Source: Bacteroidota bacterium
Lineage (GTDB): Bacteria; Bacteroidota; Bacteroidia; JAADEI01
Direction: 5' to 3'
Length of the DNA: 34,012 nucleotides
Assembly: GCA_026992635.1 (NCBI GenBank)
Contig: JALWYU010000103.1
Span: 1-34,012, forward strand
Each line of letters opens with the position of its first letter. Within the stretch, counting starts at the first letter, position 1. The position numbers and the translations under genes were made by a program. Positions 1 to 34,012 of this stretch are shown in pieces. The notes under the pieces were generated by a model. That model had not been told where the DNA came from, searched no databases, and was given only the letters and a program-made list of their open reading frames with translations.

Positions 1-404
1 CTCTGGGCAGCGGCATGGATCCACATATCCGGTCTTCCGAAATATCCGGCCCGGGGGATGAACATATATTTGAGGCCCACAATGGAGTTAGGCAGTGATA
101 GGGCCCACACGGCTGCCACGGCGAGGAGAAACACCAGCGTGGGCATGAGGACCATGTTCACCTTCTCAATCCCCTTCGCTATCCCCCTGTACACCACATA
201 TCCACCCACCGCCAGGGCGATTATCTGGAAAAAGACGACCTGGTGGGGAGAGTTTATGAAAGAATACCAGAGCGTCTGCGTATCCGTGTGGGTTATCTGG
301 CCCGTAGCCGAGACCCAGAAATACCTTATCGTCCACCCCATCACCACCGCATAGTAGAAGTTTATGGCCGTGGAGACCCACACCATCCACTCCCCCATCC
401 AACT
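1..404 (-). pseudogene. Broken fragment of a sodium:neurotransmitter symporter (NSS/SNF) family transporter
   Basis: Read on the minus strand, this frame is open and encodes membrane segments typical of LeuT-fold NSS transporters: a TM3-like stretch TAINFYYAVVMGW, then a hydrophobic helix, the loop GIAKGIEKVNMVLMPTL that matches the TM5-TM6 junction of the family, and a continuation off the window edge. Family members are about 450-500 residues and begin with a conserved GNIWRFPY-type TM1; TM1 and TM2 are missing, because the frame meets a stop at 423-425 just inside the ABC ATPase gene. Codon use differs from the window: 6 of 11 Ile codons are ATA and none of the 4 Arg codons visible is CGC/CGA/CGT. 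Five GGCC sites lie in 1-369, against 7 in the rest of the window. I infer a chimeric assembly edge or a recently inserted remnant. The family call is fairly secure from motifs; substrate is unknown. Confidence 0.7.
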
Positions 405-1230
405 CCGAAACATCCATTTCGCTTACACACGCCACCAGCCCCTCTTCACAAACCTCTCCCTATCACTCCATACCGGACATATCTATGGCTTGCTCGGACC
501 CAATGGCGCCGGCAAAACCTCACTCCTCAAACTCATCACCGGCGTACTCTTCCCCCAAAAAGGACAGGCACTCCTCTGGAATCAACTCACCACCCACCGC
601 AACGCCCAACAACTCGCCAGAATCTATTTCCTCCAGGAAGAGCTCGGACTCCCACCATGGAAACCCACCCAGCTCATCCAGCTCCACGGCAAATTCTACC
701 CCAACTTCAGCGAAGCAATTTTCCACGATTGCATCCACCAGCTGGGACCAGTCCCCAACCTTCCCCTACCCAAAATGTCCAGAGGTATGCGCCAAAAAGT
801 CGCCATCGCACTCGCACTCGCCGCCCAAACCGACATCCTCATCCTGGATGAACCTTTCAAAGGATTGGACATTCCCTCAAGACATGCATTCCGCCAACTC
901 CTCGCCCAGCACTTCTCTGCCTCCCGAATCATCATCATCTCCACGCACGAACTGCGTGAAGCCCAGGACCTCGTAGATAGCGTCATCTTCCTCTGGAATG
1001 GCTCCATCCTTGTCCAGGCTCCCCTTACACGCCTGGCTTCCAAACTAAATGTCATAGAAACCACGCAAAAACCCTCCAACGCCCTCTACGCCGAAGAAAT
1101 CGGCTCACACTGGAAAGCCCTCGTCCCCGCCAACCAGGAAGGCAACCTGGACATTGAATTCCTCTTCATCGCAGCAATACGAAGCGAACGAATCCGGCAC
1201 TACCTCCATACAATCCAGACGCCAAAGTAA
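364..1230 (+). CDS. ABC transporter ATP-binding protein
   Basis: Cytoplasmic ATPase subunit that would drive the permease encoded next. Walker A GPNGAGKT is at residues 45-52, a signature-like MSRGMRQK at 138-145 in the place of LSGGQ, Walker B ILILDEP at 158-164 and the switch histidine in STHE at 193-196. Length (288 aa) fits a single-domain ATPase of the CcmA/YtrB type, which commonly pairs with GntR regulators. The start is uncertain: family similarity begins near residue 12 (IQLRNIHFAY), while the ATG at 364 and the first codons lie in sequence that also reads as the foreign NSS fragment on the other strand and contain a GGCC site otherwise rare here. The true 5-prime end may therefore be lost at the junction. 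It is followed after 20 bases by the permease gene. The substrate cannot be told. Confidence 0.85.
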   Translation: MAVETHTIHSPIQLRNIHFAYTRHQPLFTNLSLSLHTGHIYGLLGPNGAGKTSLLKLITGVLFPQKGQALLWNQLTTHRNAQQLARIYFLQEELGLPPWKPTQLIQLHGKFYPNFSEAIFHDCIHQLGPVPNLPLPKMSRGMRQKVAIALALAAQTDILILDEPFKGLDIPSRHAFRQLLAQHFSASRIIIISTHELREAQDLVDSVIFLWNGSILVQAPLTRLASKLNVIETTQKPSNALYAEEIGSHWKALVPANQEGNLDIEFLFIAAIRSERIRHYLHTIQTPK

Positions 1231-1250
1231 ACTAATCAATCAAGCCAGCC

Positions 1251-1970
1251 ATGGACACCCTGACCAGACTCTTCTTACGCGACTGGCACTGGCGACTGCG
1301 CACCTTCTCCATCACACTCACGCTCCTGGCAATCCTCAGTGGCGTCCTGGGCATCGGATACTTCGCCACCGCCTACCTTCTCCTCCTGATAGCACTGGCT
1401 TATCCCTCACGCCTCTTCTACGAATGGAACCGAAATACCTCACTCCTCACAGAATACCTGCTACTCCCCATCCCCTGGTGGAAAAAATGGCTGGCTCGCT
1501 GGCTCCAGATCACTGTACTCATTCCAGCCCTGATCCTCACACTCACCGCACTCGCCCAGCAAATCCGTACAGCCCTGCATGGCGAGCCTTTTGAATTCTT
1601 TACACCTGAGAACATTCGCTACTTCCTCCAAACCTGGTATGTCCTCTCAGGTATCCTCCTGGTCGGTGGTATGTTCTTCCGCAAAGCACCCTTCCTCAAA
1701 ACAATGATCTTCATCCTGCTGTTTCTGCTCATCACCGGATTAATCGCCAAACTACTTATCCCCTACCCGGACACCCTCCTCTCTGAAACCCTGCCCGCCC
1801 ATTGGGGCTTCCTCGTCCAGATCTTCAAACATACAATCGTGGTCCTGGTGACACTCGCCCTCGGACTGGAAGACCTCCCCCAATGGACACTACACACCCT
1901 GCTATGGGGATCCATCACCTGGCTATGGCTCATCAGCCTGACCCGACTCCGCGAAATGCAAGCATTATGA
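1251..1970 (+). CDS. ABC-2-type membrane permease subunit
   Basis: A 239-residue, strongly hydrophobic protein with about six or seven predicted membrane segments (roughly residues 18-38, 38-56, 82-100, 126-145, 150-172, 186-207 and 213-232) and no other recognisable domain. Its position 20 bases after an ABC ATPase and overlapping a YtrA-type GntR regulator by ATGA suggests it is the membrane half of the exporter. The start ATG is preceded by the CC usual in this genome. I recognise no conserved motif that names a substrate, so the permease role rests on hydrophobicity and context. Confidence 0.7.
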   Translation: MDTLTRLFLRDWHWRLRTFSITLTLLAILSGVLGIGYFATAYLLLLIALAYPSRLFYEWNRNTSLLTEYLLLPIPWWKKWLARWLQITVLIPALILTLTALAQQIRTALHGEPFEFFTPENIRYFLQTWYVLSGILLVGGMFFRKAPFLKTMIFILLFLLITGLIAKLLIPYPDTLLSETLPAHWGFLVQIFKHTIVVLVTLALGLEDLPQWTLHTLLWGSITWLWLISLTRLREMQAL

Positions 1971-2377
1971 GCTTCCGATTCGCCGACTCTGAACCCACCT
2001 ACGTCCGTATCGCCCGACAAATCGGCGATGGCATCCTCGCCGGCAAATGGAAAGAACACGACCGCATTCCCTCTATCCGAGAACTGGCAGTCAACCTACA
2101 GGTCAACCCGCTCACCGTCATGCGCGCCTACGAATGGCTGGAAAAAGAAGGAATCATTGAAGCACGACCCGGCAAAGGCTACTTCGTCAAACCCGGAGGC
2201 AGCCACCGCTGGCGAACACTCCGCCTGAAACGGTTCCTGGAAAAAGAATTGCCCGCTCTCGTAGAAACCATGCAACTCCTCAACATCTCAACGCACCAGC
2301 TCATAGAACACATCCACAAAATCCAGCAGCAACAACAACACCCAAATGACCCACACCATGACCCAGCAACAAACTAA
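1967..2377 (+). CDS. GntR-family transcriptional regulator, YtrA-like
   Basis: A short (136 aa) regulator with the full GntR winged-helix: PTYVRIARQIGDGILAG, then the recognition region SIRELAVNLQVNPLTVMRAY (about residues 39-58) and the wing EGIIEARPGKGYFV. After the DNA-binding domain there are only about 55 residues, rich in Gln and His at the end (IQQQQQH), which is the size of the YtrA subfamily. YtrA members usually repress the ABC transporter operon that encodes them, so autoregulation of 364-5460 is a reasonable inference. The operator cannot be sought, because the sequence upstream of the cluster is replaced by the foreign fragment. The start is fixed by the ATGA overlap with the permease stop. 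Confidence 0.88.
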   Translation: MSFRFADSEPTYVRIARQIGDGILAGKWKEHDRIPSIRELAVNLQVNPLTVMRAYEWLEKEGIIEARPGKGYFVKPGGSHRWRTLRLKRFLEKELPALVETMQLLNISTHQLIEHIHKIQQQQQHPNDPHHDPATN

Positions 2378-2957
2378 CCTCAGCCTGTGGCTACTACTCG
2401 CCTTTCTCCTCTTCCAGATAGGCACCACCACATGGGTGATCCACCGGGGCACACAACGCCTCCAGTCCACCGCACACCTCATCACCATCCGTACACCCGA
2501 TACCCTTATCCTCCAGGGTTCAGGAACCGCACATATCCTGGTCCATACCACCAGCGACTCCCTTCCTGACATTCCACTAAGCCAGGTCATCACCACCTCC
2601 TCCCACACCATCCTGATCCAGGAAAGCGTCCAAGCCCAAATCCACACAGTCAGTCCTTTGCCCTACCTTTCCATCCAAACCATCCATATGAGCAAAACCA
2701 AACTCCTCTGCCAATCTAAGAAAATCCAGCGCCTCCACATACGCGTCCACGATATGGCTTCCCTATCCATCCATTGCACAGCAGATACCCTGATCGTCTA
2801 CGCAGACAACACCAGTTCACTGTACCTGGCAGGCAACTACCACTACGCATACATCCACGCACAGGATATGGCACACGTCCAGGCAAGCCCCAACCTCCCT
2901 CTCAGCATCCAGACCAAACAAATCGTTGGCGACGACCTCGCTTACGTCCAGCTCTAA
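2346..2957 (+). CDS. Membrane-anchored protein resembling head-GIN (DUF2807) adhesin-like proteins
   Basis: About 200 residues: a short N-terminal cytoplasmic piece, one membrane segment or uncleaved signal (LSLWLLLAFLLFQIGTTTWV), then a repetitive region of alternating hydrophobic beta strands (for example LHIRVHDMASLSIHCTADTL followed by similar units). This is the pattern of the right-handed beta-solenoid head-GIN domain common in Bacteroidota, often beside GntR/ABC genes. Two starts are possible: ATG 2346, or ATG 2358, which has the CC context preferred here. It overlaps the end of the regulator gene by 20-32 bases and is followed after 34 bases by the outer-membrane protein gene. The family assignment is tentative because no sharply conserved motif is visible. 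Confidence 0.5.
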   Translation: MTHTMTQQQTNLSLWLLLAFLLFQIGTTTWVIHRGTQRLQSTAHLITIRTPDTLILQGSGTAHILVHTTSDSLPDIPLSQVITTSSHTILIQESVQAQIHTVSPLPYLSIQTIHMSKTKLLCQSKKIQRLHIRVHDMASLSIHCTADTLIVYADNTSSLYLAGNYHYAYIHAQDMAHVQASPNLPLSIQTKQIVGDDLAYVQL

Positions 2958-2991
2958 CAAACATCACAACCCGGACCAAACCCCTGAAACC

Positions 2992-5460
2992 ATGACGCAT
3001 ACAACACCACCCTTCCACCATCTGATCAAACCAGCAATCCGCACCTGCACCACAACCCTACTCCTCACCTCCCTACTCACACCCCTATCCAGCCAGCCCC
3101 CCTGGCAACCCCAACAACAAACCCCACACGTCTTCTTCTCCATCCAGCTGAAAGACCTCCGTACCCGTGAACCCATACCCGCCGCAACCCTCCAGATCAC
3201 TTCTCCCGCAGACTCATCACTGCGCCGAACTACATTCTCCGACGACAACGGCACCGCAGAACTCACCGTACCCACCCACATACCGCTCACCTTATCCATC
3301 TCACACCCCGCCTACAAAGACACTCTGCTTGCCATTGAGCCCCTCCACGACCACACCTTCTGGGGCGTCCTGCTCCTCCATCCCACCACCCAGCAACTCC
3401 AAACCATCACCATCAAAGCACAACGTACACGCGTCAACTTTGACAAAAAAGAATACATCGTTACAGAACGCATGCGACGACGCGCAACCACCGCCACCGA
3501 CATCCTCAAAGAACTCCCCGACATCCAGTACGACCCCTTCCAGGACCAGATCCTTGTTCGCGGCAAAACCAACATCCTCTACCTCGTCAACGGCGTGGAA
3601 AAACCACCCGAATACGTCAAAAACATCTCCCCACAACGAATCCTCCGCATTGAAATCTACCGGAACCCCACAGGACGATACGCACTCCAGGGCTACGACG
3701 CCGTCATCAACATCATCCTGCGCGACGACTACATCGGCTGGGAACTCACCACCGGCGGACAAGCCGCATTCTCCACCAACTGGCAACAAGCACCCGCCCC
3801 ACTCCCCTACATGTTCAGCTTCCTCCGAACCGCTTTCATCCGCTACCGAACCACCTTCCGATTCGTCTTCTACAACTGGAAATACCACGGATACGCCCAC
3901 GACAACGACGCACTCAACTACAACACCACACCACTCTGGATCCAGCAACCCCTAGCTATCTTCCCTCAGGGATTCAACGCACTGAGCAAAGGCTGGGGCT
4001 TCTCACTCTACGCAGGTATGGACTGGATCCCCTCAACCCAGCACCAGATCGCCATAGACAGCCGATTCTCCTCCGTCTTCATCCCCTACTCCACGCAACG
4101 CGCCTACACTGTCCAGGACACACCCTCCACCCTCCACATCTATGCACGCAACGACAACACACCGCGCACCTACCAGATCACATTCACCCACACCTGGAAA
4201 TACACACGCGATTACCAGCTCCAGACCGCAATCTCCTACGCCTTCTCCCAAACCACCACCTACATCCGCTACGAAGAACAAAACCTCTTCACCATTGAAC
4301 AAATCCAGCAAAGCTGGGGACCAACCGGCAAAGCCTACTGGGAATGGAACGGAACACTCGCACACAACAAACTCCACCTCCTGATGGGAACACTCCTGGA
4401 AACCACCAAACAAACCACACGACTCACCACATCCTTCAACCTGCAACCCTCAGAAACCACGCCCGAATTCCACTACACACTCACCACACTCAAACCCTAC
4501 GCCTACCTGACCTGGCGCATCGCACAAAAACTCAAACTCCGAACCGGAACAGGCATCCAGACCATCTGGTTCACCACCAACAACACCCCACAACCCACCC
4601 TCCTCTTCATAGAACCCGCCGCCGACATCAACTGGCAACCCCACAAACTCTTCACGATCGTCCTCTCCTACCGCATGGATATAGAAAACCCTTCTATCGC
4701 ACAAATGCTCACCACCGCCATCACCCAAAACCGATACATCCGACAGATGGGCAACCCCAACCTCAAACCCTATGCCCATCACTCTATCCAGCTGGACGCC
4801 AACGCCCTCAGCGGACTCCTCTCACTCACACCCTTCTACGAATGGAGTACCAACGCCATTGACCAGATCTGGATACCCTACAACCAGGATTCCATTGTCG
4901 CAATGCCTATCCAGGGCGTCCACTACCAAAACTGGGGAACCGAATTCTCCATACCCATCCCCCTCTACAAACGCTCGCTCATCCTGATGGTCTACGGCGA
5001 ACTCACCACAACCCGACTCGCCTACGACACCCTCACCAACCAGATCTCCCGATTCTCCGGATTCATCGCACTCATCTACCACAACGAACGACACAAATTC
5101 AGTACAGGCTTCGCCAGCATGAACTTCGTCGTCAAAAACCCTCTTCTACAGGGCTACACAATGCAACTGGGCAGCCACCCACCCGACTTCTACGGATTCT
5201 TCCTCCGAAAACAATTCTGGAAAAACCGGGGATCCGCAACCCTCTACCTCACCTTCCCCTGGCAAATCCCCCCCATAGACTACACACTCACCACCGAACT
5301 CTCCAGCGCACAATGGCACCGACTCCACCAGCGCTACTACCCCGCTATGCGCTACCTGGCTGGCTTCATGCTCCGATTCAACTTCGCACAGGGTAGAACC
5401 ATCCACCACAAAAAACAACCAGATAACCAACCCCAACCACAGGGATTTCCCATGTTCTAA
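2992..5460 (+). CDS. Outer-membrane beta-barrel protein with carboxypeptidase-like and plug domains
   Basis: An 822-residue protein with a signal peptide (hydrophobic core TTLLLTSLLTPLS), then a carboxypeptidase-regulatory-like beta-sandwich (about 43-130), a TonB-plug-like segment around residues 155-240 containing LPDIQYDPFQDQILVRG and ending in GYDAVINIILRDD, and a long C-terminal barrel rich in aromatic beta strands. This is the architecture of the PF14905-type outer-membrane beta-barrel family of Bacteroidota, related to TonB-dependent receptors. ATG 2992 is chosen because it is directly followed by the signal peptide and has the CC context; an in-frame start at 2926 lies inside the previous gene. 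It is last in the five-gene plus-strand cluster and ends four bases before the stop of the convergent gene. The ligand is unknown. Confidence 0.82.
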   Translation: MTHTTPPFHHLIKPAIRTCTTTLLLTSLLTPLSSQPPWQPQQQTPHVFFSIQLKDLRTREPIPAATLQITSPADSSLRRTTFSDDNGTAELTVPTHIPLTLSISHPAYKDTLLAIEPLHDHTFWGVLLLHPTTQQLQTITIKAQRTRVNFDKKEYIVTERMRRRATTATDILKELPDIQYDPFQDQILVRGKTNILYLVNGVEKPPEYVKNISPQRILRIEIYRNPTGRYALQGYDAVINIILRDDYIGWELTTGGQAAFSTNWQQAPAPLPYMFSFLRTAFIRYRTTFRFVFYNWKYHGYAHDNDALNYNTTPLWIQQPLAIFPQGFNALSKGWGFSLYAGMDWIPSTQHQIAIDSRFSSVFIPYSTQRAYTVQDTPSTLHIYARNDNTPRTYQITFTHTWKYTRDYQLQTAISYAFSQTTTYIRYEEQNLFTIEQIQQSWGPTGKAYWEWNGTLAHNKLHLLMGTLLETTKQTTRLTTSFNLQPSETTPEFHYTLTTLKPYAYLTWRIAQKLKLRTGTGIQTIWFTTNNTPQPTLLFIEPAADINWQPHKLFTIVLSYRMDIENPSIAQMLTTAITQNRYIRQMGNPNLKPYAHHSIQLDANALSGLLSLTPFYEWSTNAIDQIWIPYNQDSIVAMPIQGVHYQNWGTEFSIPIPLYKRSLILMVYGELTTTRLAYDTLTNQISRFSGFIALIYHNERHKFSTGFASMNFVVKNPLLQGYTMQLGSHPPDFYGFFLRKQFWKNRGSATLYLTFPWQIPPIDYTLTTELSSAQWHRLHQRYYPAMRYLAGFMLRFNFAQGRTIHHKKQPDNQPQPQGFPMF

Positions 5461-5464
5461 CCCC

Positions 5465-7387
5465 TCAACGAAGCAACTCCTCCCAATTTCGCGGAACCGA
5501 CAAACCCGAACCAACCCGCAACAAAACCGACTCCTCCGGACAATACTCACCCGACACCACACTCCCCATCACAGACCCCGTAACATCCACCTCAGGCGGC
5601 AAATACGAAACCGGAGGACCCGGATTGTACACCACCGGCACACCCGCCGAAACAAACCGACCCACACGACCACGAAAACAACTCACCGGACACTGAACCG
5701 TCCCATCCAACCGACCACGAACCAGAAAAATGTCTCCATCCACCGCACCAAACCCTGTCGTTATCCCCGCCGCCAAAAACAACCCCGAATCCACAGGCAC
5801 CACACCCAGCAACAAATCTAAATCCTGACTGCCCACCACCAACGTCCACAACGTATCCGACAGATCCGGCGTAAACCGAACCACATACCCATTCAAATCA
5901 CCGCCATACGCCGTATACGCCGCCACCAAAACCGTAGAATCCGGCAACACCGCCACCGAACTCACATTGTTCAACCGCTCATAATGATCCTTGCTCCCAA
6001 ACCGCACCGAACGCAAAATGTTCCCCTGCGTATCTATACGAATCAAAAAGAGATCCGACGAATCCCACGACCCTGAAAGATGCCTGCCCGCCAGCAAAAA
6101 CGTACCGTCCGCCAGCGGAACAAACGCAAACGCCCGATCATCAACCTCATTCACGCCCACAGACTTCAAAAAATGCTCACTGACCACCTGACCCGTACCC
6201 GTATCCAGCTTCACCCACACCACATCCGAAGGAAGAAGACCACCCATCTCACTCTCCCCACCAGCATACACCCTGCCCGACGACAACAAATACGCCGCAC
6301 GAAACCACGTAATGCCTAACGTCCCGTACTCCCCATACCGGATCAGCTTCCTGATTTGACCCGCACTGTCCAGCCACATCACAAACCCCGAGTTGCTCGC
6401 ACCACTCCACCCCCCACTCAGAAAATACCCGCCCGTAGACAACTGCCGTATATACCAGCAATCGCCCTTTCCATACCGACGCTGCCACAACACCTGACCC
6501 TGACCATCTACGCGAACCACATATACCTCCACAGAATCCACCGTACGCGCCACACCACAGGCAATCCACCCCGAATCCACCGTCGGCGAAACATAATACA
6601 ACTCTTCATCCGCCGTAGAATCCCCATACGCCGCCAGCCAATCAATCACACCCTCTGGCGTCACCTGAACCAACAACGCATCTTGACCATATACGGGTCC
6701 CCCAGAACCAAAGGAAGTTACAAAACCTGCCAGTATCACCTTCCGAAGACCCGAATTCTGATTCACCGATAACACAAACTCATCACCACCAGGAAGCGGA
6801 ATCCGCGCACAAAACGTATTGCACGTGTCTGCCTCCAGCCAGCGCCGATACCGCGAACCACAACCACACAAATTGCACGCCGCCACCTCTACCATCCCAT
6901 CCGTCGTATCCGGCAACACCACCAGCGTATCACCACGCTGCCAAACCACCTGCCACGACGACGGAACCACCCACCGAAACGCAACCTGACACCCACCCAA
7001 ACACCGCGCAACAAACGTTGCGGGCTGACCCGAACACAAATACTCCGGACCCACCAGCTGAACCACACACTCCGGAACACGACAATACCGCGGACAAACC
7101 AGCGTATGCCACCTGTCCAGCACCGTATCATACACCTCCACACAAAACGAATCTATGTTGAAAATCATCAACGTATGCGCAGGATCCTGAATCGCATTGC
7201 GCTGAGCGGTCGTTAACCGCGGAATCAACAAACCCCGATCCGTACTGAAAATATCCAGAATCGCCGTGGTATCCGGATCCGTCGTGCCAATCCCTACAGA
7301 CTGCCCCCACCCCACCTGAATCCCACTCAACGTGCAAACCACCAGAAAACCAGCCCACCAGACTCTTCCAATCCAAAACCTCCACAT
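5465..7387 (-). CDS. Secreted protein with PKD-like region and seven propeller-like repeats
   Basis: About 640 residues with a signal peptide (WWAGFLVVCTLSGIQVGWGQ). The mature N-terminus has the segment VGIGTTDPDTTAILDI...GLLIPRLTTAQR common in secreted Bacteroidota proteins, then a Cys-rich PKD/Ig-like region. After that, seven units recur every 47-57 residues with the pattern hydrophobic-V-R-hydrophobic-D-x-x-G (for example VYVVRVDGQGQVLWQRRYG and DLFLIRIDTQGNILRSVRFG), consistent with a seven-bladed beta-propeller. No type IX C-terminal signal is evident; the protein ends VPRNWEELLR. Start at 7387 leaves a plausible leader after the candidate promoter; an in-frame ATG at 7423 is the alternative. 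The protein is unusually rich in Gly, Val and Trp because its coding strand is G/T-rich. Function unknown. Confidence 0.75.
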   Translation of the reverse strand: MWRFWIGRVWWAGFLVVCTLSGIQVGWGQSVGIGTTDPDTTAILDIFSTDRGLLIPRLTTAQRNAIQDPAHTLMIFNIDSFCVEVYDTVLDRWHTLVCPRYCRVPECVVQLVGPEYLCSGQPATFVARCLGGCQVAFRWVVPSSWQVVWQRGDTLVVLPDTTDGMVEVAACNLCGCGSRYRRWLEADTCNTFCARIPLPGGDEFVLSVNQNSGLRKVILAGFVTSFGSGGPVYGQDALLVQVTPEGVIDWLAAYGDSTADEELYYVSPTVDSGWIACGVARTVDSVEVYVVRVDGQGQVLWQRRYGKGDCWYIRQLSTGGYFLSGGWSGASNSGFVMWLDSAGQIRKLIRYGEYGTLGITWFRAAYLLSSGRVYAGGESEMGGLLPSDVVWVKLDTGTGQVVSEHFLKSVGVNEVDDRAFAFVPLADGTFLLAGRHLSGSWDSSDLFLIRIDTQGNILRSVRFGSKDHYERLNNVSSVAVLPDSTVLVAAYTAYGGDLNGYVVRFTPDLSDTLWTLVVGSQDLDLLLGVVPVDSGLFLAAGITTGFGAVDGDIFLVRGRLDGTVQCPVSCFRGRVGRFVSAGVPVVYNPGPPVSYLPPEVDVTGSVMGSVVSGEYCPEESVLLRVGSGLSVPRNWEELLR

Positions 7388-7430
7388 CTTCACCACCAAT
7401 TTGGAACCCAAACCACAAACCACTCATCAA

Positions 7431-31877: not shown

Positions 31878-33741
31878 TCAATCAGTCTGCGCATAGTAGA
31901 AGAACCGAAGGAGGGCTCGCTGTCCCGATACAGTCTCAACGACCAGGAAATAGATTCCTGAATGCTCCGGAGCGGGTAAAACCATAGCTGGAGTCCGACT
32001 GCCAGAACCTGTAGCCATAGCGAGCATACGCCCATCTATGGTTTGGAGCCAGGCATGCTTAAGCGGCTCATGCGTTGCCCAGATCAAGATCTGATTCTGA
32101 CGCAATTGCCAGTAGACCAGGTTTGATCCGGTGGAAGGAGTGCTTGTGATGGCGGAAGGCATATCTACCCATATGTAAAGGGTATCGCTCCCTACCAGTC
32201 CGCACACGGTATCCCGACAGGATACGCCAATGACATAATAGCCGGGCTGTGTGTACACATGCATATTTTGCTGGCAGGAGGTAATGGTTCCATCACCCCA
32301 GTAAATGGTACAGACATCGCAGGGTGGAGAGAAGACGCTCACGAACACAGTGTCCCCAACGTAGGCATGGGCACTATCACTGGAATGGATGGAGTCCGTA
32401 ATGATGGTGGCGTCCAGGAAAAGTTCATCGGGACAGACAGCACAGAGGGTATCTACATGTGTAGGCATGGGCGCATGCCGAAAGAGGTAAGAATCCACCG
32501 AAACATAAGGGCTATAATCCAGGAGGAGCAGATAGACGGAATCATCGGGCGGATAAGGATAGGGTTCTACGAGCCAGAAGGGCTGGGAATAGCAATAGGT
32601 AGTAATTCCTTTGCCTGTTTGGGCATCCAGGTACACGTATCCCACTTTTTGCTGGTGTGTGATGCCTGCGATGGACACGAAGCTGTTTCCGAAAAGTTCA
32701 ATCGCGCCGCGACCCAGTCGTACAAAGCTATCCAGGACTGTAATCCAATGGATAGTAGCGGGTGCTCCATAGGGGTCCAATCTGAGGACAAAACCCTTCG
32801 TGTACGGTAGCCAGGGATAGTTAATATAGCCGGCGACGTAGGCGGCATGGTCTGAAAGGGCGGCGGCCAGTGGGACGAGCATCACGGAATCTGTCGTTGT
32901 GAATATCTTGTTGCAATACAATGGGTTACCACTCCACGCGTCAATCAGACATACGTACAGGGTATCGCGGGTATCGCGCCGGGTTCCCGCAACGAAAATG
33001 TAGGTAGAATCGTCGGTGGCGATTGCCTGCCAGTCTACATAATGCCAGCGTGTTGCCCACGCAATTTGCGTGCCCTGTCCATTGAGGGCAAACAGAATAT
33101 CACAGGCACCAGAACACAAGGATGCTACGACGCGATCCAGCCCTCCTTCATGATAGACCAGATCCTGAACGGTATGTCCCCAGGGAATGTCAGGGTTGGT
33201 GACCAGTCGGATCCAGTCCAGCGAATGTGTAGCCATATTGAGGCGGGCGACCAATCCTGCGGTCGTGGCAGGTCCGGTGTAACATCCCCTGCCTCCTATG
33301 TAGACAATGGAGCCCGACAATTGAAACCTTTCATAAGCGGTTGTGGCATACAGGCGATGTGCCGGGAAAAAACAAATTGGGATCACCACCTGCAATCCCT
33401 GTTGTCAACCAGTTGTACTGGTTCACAACCATAATGCGTGGCGTAGAATCCACCTCCCAGACCTCATTCACTACAAAGTACTGCCGTGTGATATCGCCAA
33501 GAGAAGGCGAGCCGGCAACGCCCAGCAACGTATCACAGTGAGCAACCCGACACAGGAAGAGGTCGGGTCCGGCGGCACTGAGTGCGTCTGCTCCGTAGGC
33601 TCTGACAAAGGTAGCTGGAGCACTGAGCTGGATTGCCTGCGCCTGCAAAGCGGGGAGTTGTGTCATTGGTGCGGCAAGTGGCAGGAGGAGCAATGACCAG
33701 CACTGAGGGAGGTGTCCGGGAAGGAGGGTTTGGCGGAGCAT
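31878..33741 (-). pseudogene. Surface protein with PKD and type IX-like C-terminal domains, split by a frameshift
   Basis: Two overlapping frames on the minus strand make one protein. The first (33741-33331) has a signal peptide (WSLLLLPLAAPMTQLPALQA) and runs to NWLTTGIAGGDPNLFFPG; the second (from about 33370 to 31878) resumes as PAHRLYATTAYERF. The switch is at a run of six T (six A on the plus strand, 33367-33372); removing one T restores a single frame of about 620 residues. The body has repeated beta-propeller-like units, a PKD domain (IYWGDG ... HVYTQPGYYVIGV), and an end of about 75 residues with GIYFLVVETVSG that resembles type A sorting domains of the type IX secretion system. It may be a true pseudogene, a sequencing error, or a slippage-expressed gene. 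Function unknown. Confidence 0.75.
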
Positions 33742-34012
33742 GGCTGCTGGATTTTGGGGGTTGGCTGACTTTTCAAGGGGTGGACATTATAAAAGATGCT
33801 GGACTGGATGATAAGGGTTGCACGGGACACGAAGAATAGCGGAAACTGCTGATTATGAGTTGACTGGGTTGGTCAGGTGCAGGGGGTCGGGGTGGTTTAG
33901 GAGAGGGCTGACAAGCGCAAGGGACAGGTTTGACCTGATTCAAGCAGGTGGACGCAAGGGGCTGGGTTTCGGTGAGACAAGAGGCGGTTTTTTGGGGTTG
34001 GTTGGGTTTGGG
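33742..34012. other. G-rich upstream region without a gene
   Basis: 271 bases with 112 G and 34 C on the plus strand. No frame on either strand looks coding. It holds the candidate promoter above and a small inverted repeat CAGGT-TTG-ACCTG. The gene that would lie beyond is outside the window. Confidence 0.5.
33786..33814 (-). promoter_or_regulatory. Candidate promoter of the split surface-protein gene
   Basis: On the minus strand TTATCA (33814-33809) and TATAAT (33791-33786) are 17 bases apart, about 45 bases before the ATG at 33741. TATAAT stands out in otherwise G-rich sequence. The -35 match is weak, and Bacteroidota primary sigma factors often prefer TAnnTTTG, so this is tentative. Confidence 0.3.

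Follow-up and report, generated by a model that had tools for sequence, protein, structure and literature searches.

Archaeal transporter sequence at the left end of a Bacteroidota contig: a very probable assembly or library artefact at the start of an ABC ATPase gene

Results

Gene content of the contig

The window, that is, the whole stretch of DNA analyzed here, is the entire contig C103 (34,012 bp) of a Bacteroidota genome, so that base 1 marks a contig end. The host genome (G000) comprises 2,130,337 bp in 114 contigs, with a completeness of 82.55% and a contamination score of 0.48%. The features of the left part of the window are collected in table 1.

Table 1. Features identified between the left contig end and position 5460
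Feature	Coordinates	Strand	Basis
Internal piece of an archaeal (Thermoplasmata-like) NSS/SNF transporter gene	1..401	-	72% DNA and 72% protein identity to L029 (G060); Pfam SNF
False N-terminus of the ABC ORF, MAVETHTIH	364..390	+	Archaeal NSS antisense; the same L029 stretch reads MAVETHTIHAPIQ
Junction zone, about 8–11 bases compatible with both parents (microhomology)	391..401	.	Archaeal match to 401; ABC homology from 391–397
Bacterial gene for an ABC-transporter ATPase; its start codon was lost at the junction	391..1230	+	55%/50% identity to the G003/G001 relatives; ABC_tran
Remaining bacterial block: membrane protein, GntR regulator, unknown protein, outer-membrane beta-barrel protein	1251..5460	+	Same order in L049/L050; Pfam GntR, OMP_b-brl_3

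As called (364–1230), the ABC ORF matches Pfam ABC_tran, and its closest relatives come from within the host's family, from G003 (55% identity) and G001 (50%). In these two family members, at the loci L049 and L050, the gene stands at the head of a block that continues with a membrane protein, a GntR regulator, a protein like that encoded at 2346–2957, and an outer-membrane protein. The order of the five genes is the same as in the window throughout L049 and, as far as its contig end, in L050, where the match to the outer-membrane protein is partial and close to that end. The window copy differs from both in having neither a start codon nor the native upstream region. The comparison with related genomes that the initial annotation had proposed returned, for both family members examined, an ABC block with no NSS relative beside it at a useful score (best E 4.0).

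In both relatives, the ABC gene is preceded by a gene that is 82% identical between them and that we read, from its sequence, as a probable FAD-dependent oxidoreductase. G000 contains nothing close to it (24% and 30%), although a further conserved upstream gene of the relatives has a 58% match on contig C63 of that genome. The missing oxidoreductase fits an unassembled gap at the true left flank of the ABC gene; the host genus could alternatively have a different gene content or order.

At the right end of the window, the minus-strand ORFs 33331–33741 and 31878–33395 overlap in different frames; neither matched in a Pfam search, and the two may represent one frameshifted gene. The final 271 bases (33742–34012) have a GC skew of +0.53 and hold no ORF of at least 120 codons. 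They contain no GGCC and, unlike the left end, do not look foreign by this test. Between 391 and 34012, strand asymmetry is extreme and tracks the plus strand rather than gene direction. The third-codon GC skew on that strand is about -0.7 at the left, including the minus-strand ORF at 5468–7423, then -0.57 in dnaA, -0.56 in the EF-G gene, and about 0 at secY (24.4 kb), and it reaches +0.1 to +0.2 by 29–33 kb. A possible reading of this pattern is that a replication origin is close by.

An internal piece of an archaeal NSS transporter gene

On the minus strand, an open frame running from 413 to 3 exits the contig end. Its 137 codons, of which the initial three or four lie on the far side of the junction, match Pfam SNF (PF00209) at profile positions 181–257 of 524, which bears out the earlier description of the left edge as an internal piece of an NSS transporter. 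The piece has lost both its flanks, one to the contig end at 1 and the other to the junction at 391–401, and falls short of a complete functional NSS/SNF gene, with its roughly 500 codons, start, and full set of membrane helices. Its 134 remaining codons are open, with zero stops.

The foreign origin suspected for this edge was borne out by homology, which points to a gene of the Thermoplasmata type. In the genome collection, 17 of the 19 homologous loci carry archaeal record titles (Thermoplasmata, Poseidoniia/Marine Group III, and other Euryarchaeota), the two others being from a Thermoanaerobaculia MAG and a Neomarinimicrobiota MAG. The best relative is found in the MAG of the Thermoplasmata archaeon AUK251 (L029), whose NSS gene of about 500 codons, as opposed to the roughly 134 held by the window, is 72% identical to the piece in protein (residues 4–137, 134 residues) and 72% in DNA over 1–401, in a pairing printed without gaps. 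A search for a closer donor among 60 relatives of this archaeon, at a cut-off of E 0.001, returned two genomes with a match at that level or better, AUK251 itself being one of them. The donor's own DNA was not found, the nearest sequence being 72% identical.

The taxonomy of best hits on each side, a further check suggested from the start, is accordingly divided: archaeal for 1–401 and of the host's own family for 391–5460.

One sharp junction truncates both genes

That the NSS piece ends abruptly inside the ABC gene, both genes being altered at one point, had been noticed from the letters alone, and the alignments agree, since the archaeal match stops at 401 and the ABC start is lost. The breakpoint itself, first placed at 369–380, has to be moved to about 391–401. 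Identity to L029 is 18–20 of 20 bases per step across 341–400 and drops to 4–6 of 20 across 401–480 (deeper inside the piece, it is 9–17 of 20), and the protein alignments of the ABC ORF with its relatives begin at codon 391 (L050) and codon 397 (L049). Whether the number of bases shared by both parents is nearer 8 or nearer 11 depends on base 391, where the window in the archaeal frame encodes Glu and five homologues (L029, L030, L034, L042, and L046) encode Ala, Ala, Ile, Met, and Val, respectively.

The first nine residues of the ABC ORF are found unchanged in the antisense reading of L029, and its opening codons are therefore of archaeal type. The ABC proteins of the relatives open with MNAVEI or MSAVEI, and their native start aligns near window position 388, where the window reads CAC. 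Because the next in-frame start codon past the junction is a TTG at 490, the ABC gene as written has only the false start at 364. Two junction sequences recur within the window, a 12-mer (384 and 9207) and an 11-mer (392 and 13344), which we judged to be probable chance repeats in C-rich sequence.

A motif avoided by the host marks the left edge

Composition sets the edge apart in the ways first noted. It holds five GGCC sites (48, 74, 102, 299, and 366), and G and C are closer to balance in 1–401 (GC skew -0.11) than in 402–802 (-0.46). Codon use differs likewise: five neighboring host genes use ATA for 14 of 137 Ile and AGG for 0 of 86 Arg, the NSS piece for 6 of 11 and 2 of 4, respectively. 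In the remaining 33,611 bases of the window, GGCC is strongly depleted, with 7 sites seen where a Markov estimate gives 161. Other 401-base stretches, sampled in steps of 5, contain at most one GGCC each, and at the host rate the Poisson chance of at least five sites in 401 bases is 3e-8.

Across the whole genome (2.13 Mb), the pattern GGCC-N1-30-GGCC-N1-30-GGCC occurs once, at this very edge, against 254 times for the reversed control, and the corresponding pair pattern occurs 19 times against 1605, 2 of the 19 falling inside the edge; at least some pairs elsewhere look to us like tRNA sequence. GGCC is also scarce in the stretches from the two family members, with 7 sites in L049 where 60.5 are expected and 0 in L050 where 35.7 are; in the archaeal L029 it stands at chance expectation (62 per 6.2 kb). 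For a C5 methyltransferase, a candidate cause of the avoidance, the genome gave one match, below the Pfam family cut-off, and none above it. After position 401, the window is also poor in two other palindromes, TCGA (5 against 92 expected) and CTAG (4 against 50), and the left 401 bases contain neither; zero counts in so short a piece say little, and only GGCC separates the edge.

No companion archaeal sequence in the host genome

When the 6.2-kb L029 DNA was compared with the host genome, C103:1–401 was the sole match, and the NSS piece was found there once only. Apart from this piece, the full archaeal NSS protein matched a single gene, the NSS gene that the bacterium itself carries on C87 (35% identity). 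DNA matches of window 1–600 elsewhere in the genome are only 24–48 bases long and lie at 475–522, away from the junction, in what we take to be the ATP-binding motif region of ABC genes. Reading 1–401 and its ORFs, we saw no integrase, IS, transposase, repeats, or target duplication, the far side of the piece lying beyond the contig. Viral contigs held no relatives of the NSS piece or of the ABC protein, and plasmids gave no DNA match; carriage by a virus or plasmid was rejected on these grounds.

Discussion

Two parents from two domains of life meet at one sharp junction at which the genes of both are truncated, and the two relatives examined carry the ABC block without NSS. From the letters, either an assembly chimera or a fresh insertion had been proposed, and this pair of readings holds up. 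We consider it very probable that the left 400 bases or so are an artefact of assembly or library preparation, in which an archaeal NSS fragment was joined to the start of a bacterial ABC gene. A chimera is favored because the piece lies at a contig end, shows no mobile-element features on the side that can be read, carries a motif that the host avoids, is accompanied by nothing else from the archaeal locus in this genome, and is missing beside the ABC block of the two relatives.

The main competitor is that the sampled population did acquire archaeal DNA very recently, a stretch of 400 bases or more that continues past the contig having been inserted at the start of the ABC gene through end-joining at a short homology. 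The sharp junction and its microhomology would suit such an event, as stretches of 8–11 shared bases are also left by illegitimate recombination in cells, and a piece that retains its own codons and GGCC sites is unadapted to the host. Yet we regard this insertion as unlikely, for it would have broken the first gene of a conserved block and left no visible integrase, IS, or repeat at the edge, the rest of the archaeal locus is absent from the genome, and 400 bases separate the join from a contig end, the place where chimeras are expected. Recombination through the archaeal ABC gene of L029 (5162–6208) was also considered and rejected, as that gene lies beyond the opposite (3′) end of the NSS gene.

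An old horizontal transfer that has since decayed into an NSS pseudogene adjoining the ABC gene would account for the partial state of the piece, but it is extremely improbable given 134 stop-free codons that still share 72% identity with the archaeal gene, GGCC sites retained in a genome with very few clustered ones, the lack of NSS beside ABC in the two family members examined, and the break of both genes at one point. It is scarcely credible, too, that the bacterium's own NSS gene on C87 was misjoined to its ABC gene, since that gene, which does make such a join conceivable, has only 35% identity to the piece against 72% for the archaeal one; this reading was rejected, the short DNA matches elsewhere in the genome also lying off the junction.

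If the contig end is indeed chimeric, a fragment of a Thermoplasmata-like NSS gene would have become attached to the ABC ATPase gene at its start, through about 8–11 bases common to both, either during library preparation, as a chimeric molecule, or through a misjoin that the assembler introduced where bacterial coverage would have run out. Both routes lie outside the cell, the first in vitro and the second in silico. De Bruijn misjoins usually need a shared k-mer longer than 8–11 bases. Because the shared stretch is so short, a chimeric molecule seems likelier than a k-mer misjoin, and the purely assembler-based version is the weaker one; a length of about 400 bases would also fit a single sequenced fragment.

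We see nothing new to biology in this left edge, which serves rather as a warning and as a showcase for motif avoidance as a detector of chimeras. Left in databases, the join would suggest a false gene transfer from an archaeon to a bacterium and give the ABC gene a start that is not its own. It also illustrates that a strongly avoided tetranucleotide can reveal 400 bases of foreign sequence at the edge of a contig even when the contamination score of the genome is as low as that reported here.

Chimeric contigs are a known product of metagenome assembly, and one benchmark counts 22.15 of them per genome with megahit and 2.63 with SPAdes (PMC11261854). As in the chimeric contigs of such benchmarks, two organisms are here brought together by one join near a contig end; unlike in the usual case, the parents come from two domains and the join is flagged by a motif that the host avoids, which makes this example unusually visible.
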